Origin: Candidatus Latescibacterota bacterium
GTDB taxonomy: Bacteria; JAAXHH01; JABIQT01
Reading direction: 5' to 3'
Assembly: GCA_018667995.1 (NCBI GenBank)
Contig: JABIQT010000614.1
Location: forward strand, 1 to 5,024
Length of the DNA stretch: 5,024 bases
Below the pieces are notes generated by a model, which saw nothing but the letters and a program-made list of their open reading frames with translations, was not told the DNA's origin and did not search any database. The position numbers and the translations under genes were made by a program. Position 1 is the first letter of the stretch; each line of letters begins with the position of its first letter. Shown here one piece after another: positions 1-2,248 of the stretch.

Positions 1-595
<595 letters not shown>

Positions 596-663: not shown

Positions 664-951
664 TTACTTGACGATGCCCAGAATGTCTTCTTCGCGCATC
701 ATCAGGAATTCCTCATCCTCCAACTTGACTTCCGTGCCGGAGTATTTTCCGAACAGAATCTTGTCGCCGACACTGACTTCCAGAGGAGTGCGCTCGCCGT
801 TGTCGCCAAGCTTGCCCGTGCCGACAGCAACAATTTCGCCTTCCTGGGGTTTCTCTTAAGCGGTGTCGGGAATGATGATGCCGCCGCGCTGCTGCTCTTC
901 CTCTTCGAGACGCCGGACCATAACACGATCGCCCAGTGGTTGTACCGTCAT
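664..951 (-). pseudogene. groES: Co-chaperonin GroES (Hsp10), with an in-frame TAA at codon 32
   Basis: GroES forms the seven-subunit lid of the GroEL chamber. Reading the minus strand from ATG 951 gives [19 protein letters not shown], the mobile-loop region [12 protein letters not shown] (residues 20-31), then TAA (856-858), and in the same frame [35 protein letters not shown] and a normal C-terminus [12 protein letters not shown] with stop TAA at 664-666. The total of 95 codons is the usual length for the family. Most homologues read PDTAKEKPQEG here, so the stop replaces a lysine codon; one A-to-T change from AAA is enough. Everything on both sides is conserved and in frame, so the damage is either very recent or a sequencing or assembly error. 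If real, the product is a 31-residue fragment without the beta-barrel core. No in-frame start shortly after the stop would rescue it. AGGAG lies 8 nt before the ATG. It is the first gene of the groES-groEL operon. Confidence 0.9.
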
Positions 952-1282: not shown

Positions 1283-2248
1283 TCAGGGCAGGTTGATTTC
1301 GAGAGAGACGGCATCCTTTGATGTGAGCGACAGTCTGGGGGCCAGCAAAGTATGTGTGAAAGCTCGGTCCCAGAATGTGATCCCTGAAACAGGCTCTTGA
1401 CCAGCGATACTGCGTGATAGCATGGATCGATGTTCGCGGCTGAGTCTGTATAGATCGCGGGGGTAGCGTCCTGTAATCCAGTAGTTGCCCAGATCGAATG
1501 GAGGGAATGCGGCCACACCTGTACTGTCCGTTTCCGCTGATATTACTGTGGCCGCCCGGTAGACGGTCGCCGCTACGATAGCTTTTTCGATGAGATCTCG
1601 ATGGTAGCCCTGGTCGTAGTCCTCGATGGCTCGAAGCCAGTTGTAGTAACGCTCGAAAGTCAGCGCGTCTGGCGTGAGGATCACCGTACTGACCCCGACC
1701 TCTTGAATAGTAGGTTCACTTGTCTCAACTCGTGAGGGATCATAGTAGGAGACCTCTCTTCGAAGTGTACTCGGAAGCACTGATGTAACTTTCGATTTCA
1801 GGTCCAACACAACTAAAGGGCCATGAGTCCTGCGGATCGCATCTACGAGAATCGCGTATTCAGGTGTCTTCTGTGTATGATTGAGGTATAGTTGGCGCGC
1901 GGTTGCCACACGATTGAGCATGCTTATCACGTTAGGTGACATTGCGAATCCACGCCGTTCGATAGCACCCCTCAGGAATACCTCGCGGTTCGCATCTTCC
2001 AAGGCGCGGATGATCCCCTTCGGTGGCCGCAACGCTTCAACGTGCCTGATGGAGTCGATGATTGATACCGCGCTTCGGGACAGAATGTCCAGTCTGCTGC
2101 CCGACGCCGGTCCCTTGATACCTGTAGGGTCAGTGAACACCGCCTCAACAGAAAGATGGCTGGTGGGGCGCCCTATAATCCAGTGCGATACAACAAGCGT
2201 CAGAACGGCTATGAATATCAGGAGATACGGAGTTAAGCGACTTTGCAT
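1283..2248 (-). CDS. Membrane-anchored protein of unknown function, possible C-terminal Ig-like domain
   Basis: I do not recognise this 321-residue protein. It starts with a short basic N-terminus and one hydrophobic segment (about residues 7-25, PYLLIFIAVLTLVVSHWII), so it is probably anchored in the inner membrane with the rest outside the cytoplasm; no lipobox cysteine is present, and I see no cysteine at all. Residues about 55-145 look helical. Residues about 225-262 (VYRAATVISAETDSTG, then FPPFDLGNYWITG) resemble the TD..G.F.....G.Y pattern of carboxypeptidase-regulatory-like beta-sandwich domains; this is a weak pattern match, not an assignment. The ATG at 2248 has an in-frame TGA two codons upstream and only a weak GAGA-type ribosome site. 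It follows the glycosyltransferase gene by 37 bp on the same strand, so co-transcription and a link to envelope glycan handling are plausible. It ends with TGA at 1283-1285. Confidence 0.8.
   Translation of the reverse strand: MQSRLTPYLLIFIAVLTLVVSHWIIGRPTSHLSVEAVFTDPTGIKGPASGSRLDILSRSAVSIIDSIRHVEALRPPKGIIRALEDANREVFLRGAIERRGFAMSPNVISMLNRVATARQLYLNHTQKTPEYAILVDAIRRTHGPLVVLDLKSKVTSVLPSTLRREVSYYDPSRVETSEPTIQEVGVSTVILTPDALTFERYYNWLRAIEDYDQGYHRDLIEKAIVAATVYRAATVISAETDSTGVAAFPPFDLGNYWITGRYPRDLYRLSREHRSMLSRSIAGQEPVSGITFWDRAFTHTLLAPRLSLTSKDAVSLEINLP

Follow-up and report, generated by a model that had tools for sequence, protein, structure and literature searches.

Does an in-frame stop codon inside a conserved co-chaperonin gene reflect an unusual use of that codon by the cell, a gene copy that has recently been lost, or a fault in the sequence itself? 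The question is raised by a groES (Cpn10) frame on the window analysed here, which is the whole of one 5,024-base contig (C1101) in a metagenome-assembled genome of Candidatus Latescibacterota (6.06 Mb in 1,165 contigs, 85.07% completeness, 4.16% contamination). The frame lies on the minus strand at 664..951, comprises 95 codons and a stop, and is broken by a TAA at codon 32 (856..858), at the C-terminal end of the mobile loop, where nearly all relatives carry lysine.

An interrupted but conserved groES

Translated with an X at the internal stop, the frame matched the Pfam profile PF00166 (Cpn10) with 123 bits (cut-off 21.1) over positions 2-93 of 93, and also passed the thresholds of several co-chaperone GroES models in NCBIfam, so the sequence-only reading of a full-length groES running from 951 to 664 with a TAA at 856-858 is borne out by both translation and profile. 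The stretches before and after the TAA are each homologous to GroES and together make up the full length; judged by this homology on both sides, the broken frame is not a chance effect of open reading frames. The frame sits directly upstream of groEL on the same strand (frame 577 to 2), as a groES would, and lacks the uninterrupted coding of mobile loop and barrel, since the TAA falls at codon 32 of 95. The groEL N-terminus at 2..577 (minus strand, 192 codons) is intact, runs off the contig end, and is 84-88% identical to relatives of the same order. The other frames of the window, namely those of a glycosyltransferase, a 321-aa and a 425-aa product, are open as well. The 321-aa frame (1283-2248, minus strand), located between groES and the cellulose-synthase-like glycosyltransferase, had no match in Pfam or NCBIfam.

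Comparison with relatives, the closest of which are of the same order, with none of the same genus or family in the collection searched, placed the stop in sharp relief. Codon 32 encodes lysine at 103 of 109 homologous groES loci (AAG at 75, AAA at 28), the remainder having alanine, glutamine or threonine, which upholds the earlier claim that the family normally has lysine there. None of the 109 loci has a stop within the match, nor was an internal stop present in any other groES in a search of 240 genomes, among the approximately 150 matches listed. A single A-to-T substitution on the coding strand separates AAA from TAA. The codons on both sides had been described as undamaged, and the differences from five order relatives agree with this, being mostly synonymous before and after the stop; against one of these relatives (L056) we counted 14 synonymous and 4 nonsynonymous differences upstream, and 28 and 13 downstream. 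The predominance of synonymous differences on both sides suggests that the whole of groES diverged under selection and that any lesion would be very recent; by this measure, the flanks of the stop are free of signs of decay.

If the stop were real, the 31-residue product would, by analogy with the known GroES fold, keep the N-terminus and the mobile loop and be without the barrel. Internal re-initiation past the stop was considered and rejected, given that a usable start codon is lacking until the C-terminus: the next in-frame ATG occurs only in ...FLMMREED, near the end of the protein, which leaves re-initiation unable to rescue the gene. Where its essentiality has been examined (Escherichia coli), GroES cannot be dispensed with. 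A real stop in the sole groES of a living cell would mean either that UAA is read through in an essential gene, or that GroES has been lost while groEL is kept.

Stop codon usage across the genome

Reassignment of TAA to a sense codon throughout the lineage would account for the interruption, and the groES TAA is itself the one observation that speaks for it. TAA is also a normal terminator in this genome. It ends both groES (664-666) and the neighbouring glycosyltransferase (2286-2288), from which the sequence-only reading had already argued against reassignment, and that argument is strengthened by two wider surveys. In 100 sampled contigs, 34 of which, all shorter than 3 kb, are read as N, leaving approximately 408 kb readable, 239 long frames (> 250 codons) end in TGA (101), TAA (72) or TAG (66). 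No internal stop was present in the 192 conserved-domain matches listed from the same genome (36 adh_short_C2, 78 GFO_IDH_MocA and 78 ABC_tran), which by a rough estimate represent some 28,000 codons. In addition, no stop anticodon occurred among the tRNAs identified by ARAGORN (29 tRNA matches), and a pattern search for a tRNA with a TTA anticodon was empty, both in a genome that is partly missing or masked. Since TAA is a normal terminator, the 192 domain matches are free of stops, and no stop-reading tRNA was found, recoding of TAA across the genome can in practice be excluded, and we regard the chance of such a reassignment in this lineage as negligible. The genome resembles neither a reassigned code, in which TAA would recur inside genes and go unused as a terminator, nor, among the tRNAs identified, one with a suppressor tRNA.

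The stop also appears isolated within the genome. In a codon-usage scan of the readable 408 kb for genes broken by a single stop, the groES stop ranked first and no other convincing break was seen, at a threshold at which the scan recovers about 26% of random breaks; the other candidates inspected read as natural gene ends followed by the next gene, or as antisense frames.

A different kind of stop codon was noted on another contig, C870, where a peroxidase-related AhpD-like frame (L002 730-1302; TIGR01926, 120.7 bits when read through) contains a TGA at 1009-1011. This TGA, in the context CVY-TGA-LESH, falls where the second cysteine of a CxxC motif would be expected and is a selenocysteine candidate; NCBIfam includes a (seleno)protein family of this kind, AhpD_rel_CFYUT. 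Downstream of the TGA the fold is only weakly stable (z -1.43), and neither tRNA-Sec nor SelB was found above the family cut-off in the incomplete genome.

Decoding of the TAA could instead be confined to this one site, with the codon usefully read as lysine or another amino acid, perhaps for regulation. The normal constraint on groES downstream of the TAA would fit such decoding, as would the lack of another canonical groES in the visible assembly. Against this, a stop that recurs in none of the homologous loci or listed matches is not a conserved device and does not amount to a conserved programmed readthrough, and the tRNA searches offer no decoder; the TAA is directly followed by GAG, and no relative has a stop here. 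The sequence-only reading had listed readthrough or suppression among its options, and nothing in the tRNAs or the relatives supports it. We therefore consider site-specific readthrough or recoding to be very improbable, and its more particular form, a lineage-specific UAA readthrough that would tune the co-chaperonin level against that of GroEL, slightly more so. More generally, one internal stop on one contig of a fragmented bin should not be taken as evidence on the genetic code.

Chaperonin gene copies in the bin

The other alternative is a real and recent nonsense mutation that kills this copy of groES, making it a pseudogene of recent origin or a variant of a strain, while an intact groES is present elsewhere in the cell or in the binned population, and translation of the downstream groEL, with a start of its own, may continue. 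No second canonical groES was present in the visible assembly, which is 85% complete and has contigs < 3 kb read as N. The sole other Cpn10 match in a whole-genome search was a divergent 131-aa protein on C870 (L002 128-523, minus strand), in which the Pfam match is N-terminal, covering profile positions 5-50, and the C-terminal half is unusual. We rejected this protein as a replacement for groES in view of its partial profile match and because order relatives, most of which have two Cpn10 matches with one canonical, seem to carry it in addition to an ordinary groES. Its role is thus probably that of a regular companion to groES, not of a spare copy. As a second Cpn10 match is present in most of the order's genomes, the protein may be a co-chaperone conserved as a companion of GroES. 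In two genomes of the same order (G005, listed as 98% complete, and G015) only a weak Cpn10 match (~7e-11) was recorded and canonical groES was not found, which may be an assembly gap or a real loss.

In this bin groEL is found as three pieces: the N-terminus on the window, a further N-terminal piece on C1131, and a C-terminal piece on C1002. The C1131 copy has no groES beside it and is preceded by a CIRCE-like element, TTGGCACTC-N9-GAGTGCCAA, with two mismatches (L034 968-994); no CIRCE match was obtained at the window groES. C1002 carries the 3' half of groEL followed by FmdB-like and MoxR-like genes, in the order seen downstream of groESL in two related loci (L057 and L058), and its start overlies the contig end of the window (1..49, no strand assigned). 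These 49 bases differ at 8 positions; four of the resulting codon changes are synonymous and three alter the amino acid, mostly conservatively, a pattern as in real divergence. For this reason C1002 was rejected as a plain continuation of the window groEL, and the mismatches indicate that the two are copies from different loci or organisms. The bin thus contains at least two groEL genes of the groESL type, either paralogues or co-binned relatives. In tetranucleotide composition, C1101, C1002 and C1131 all fall inside the spread of the bin's other contigs, so that this measure cannot tell a contaminant.

The sequence-only reading listed a second groES elsewhere among the possible implications of a real lesion. 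A second groESL-type groEL half does exist in the bin, and the groES that belongs to the C1002 copy may lie in the missing 15% of the genome or on a contig < 3 kb. With a second groESL-type groEL, a real lesion in a redundant copy would be tolerable, which keeps the nonsense mutation alive as an explanation, as do the additional groEL with its CIRCE-like element and the intact flanks, which a very young change would leave behind. The evidence on the other side is that each of the order relatives shows a single canonical groES, with a second Cpn10 match that fits the divergent protein, and that no second lesion was seen in groES or in the groEL fragment. On balance, we see a real nonsense mutation as a serious possibility, if not the one that we favor.

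Origin of the stop and comparison with known systems

Our preferred explanation, held with moderate confidence, is that the functional groES of the living cell most likely lacks the TAA, which would be an error or a rare read variant in the consensus. Under this explanation, an A-to-T change, turning AAA into TAA on the coding strand, would have come into the consensus by a base-call or consensus error, or from a rare variant among the reads, in a metagenome assembly that is fragmented and probably of low coverage. The real groES would encode lysine at codon 32 and yield a normal GroES, the partner of the GroEL encoded immediately downstream. We favor an error over a real lesion because GroES is essential, the flanks are undamaged and the assembly is tangled at this locus: the contig breaks inside groEL, where the mismatched overlap with C1002 points to mixed or duplicated sequence, and the redundant groEL fragments make the groES locus unreliable. 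The error itself is what we infer; the stop, its distance of one substitution from a lysine codon, its intact flanks, its isolation and the ambiguous assembly are read directly from the data. Counting against an error, the rest of the assembly looks clean, as the stop-free domain matches indicate, so such errors must be rare here and one in groES needs some bad luck; the same cleanness speaks against generally poor sequence, and leaves the real lesion its share. Literature searches on nonsense alleles of groES, and on the rate of stop-codon errors in metagenome bins, yielded nothing of use. The options named by the sequence-only reading, i.e. a recent change, a sequence error, or a change tolerated through redundancy, were in our judgement the right ones.

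Compared with canonical bacterial GroES (PF00166, groESL operon), the window groES is alike in its full-length homology, the mobile-loop motif GGIIIPDTA and the groEL downstream, and differs by one in-frame TAA. With stop-codon recoding systems, such as suppressor tRNAs, selenocysteine or pyrrolysine insertion and reassigned codes, it has in common a stop within a conserved frame, and it departs from them in that no suppressor tRNA was found, the stop recurs neither in other genes nor in relatives, and TAA serves as an ordinary terminator. A further likeness is to the sporadic nonsense changes and base errors of fragmented metagenome-assembled genomes; there the groES case, as a presumed instance, corresponds in the single substitution, the intact flanks, its uniqueness as sampled, and a contig that ends inside a conserved gene.
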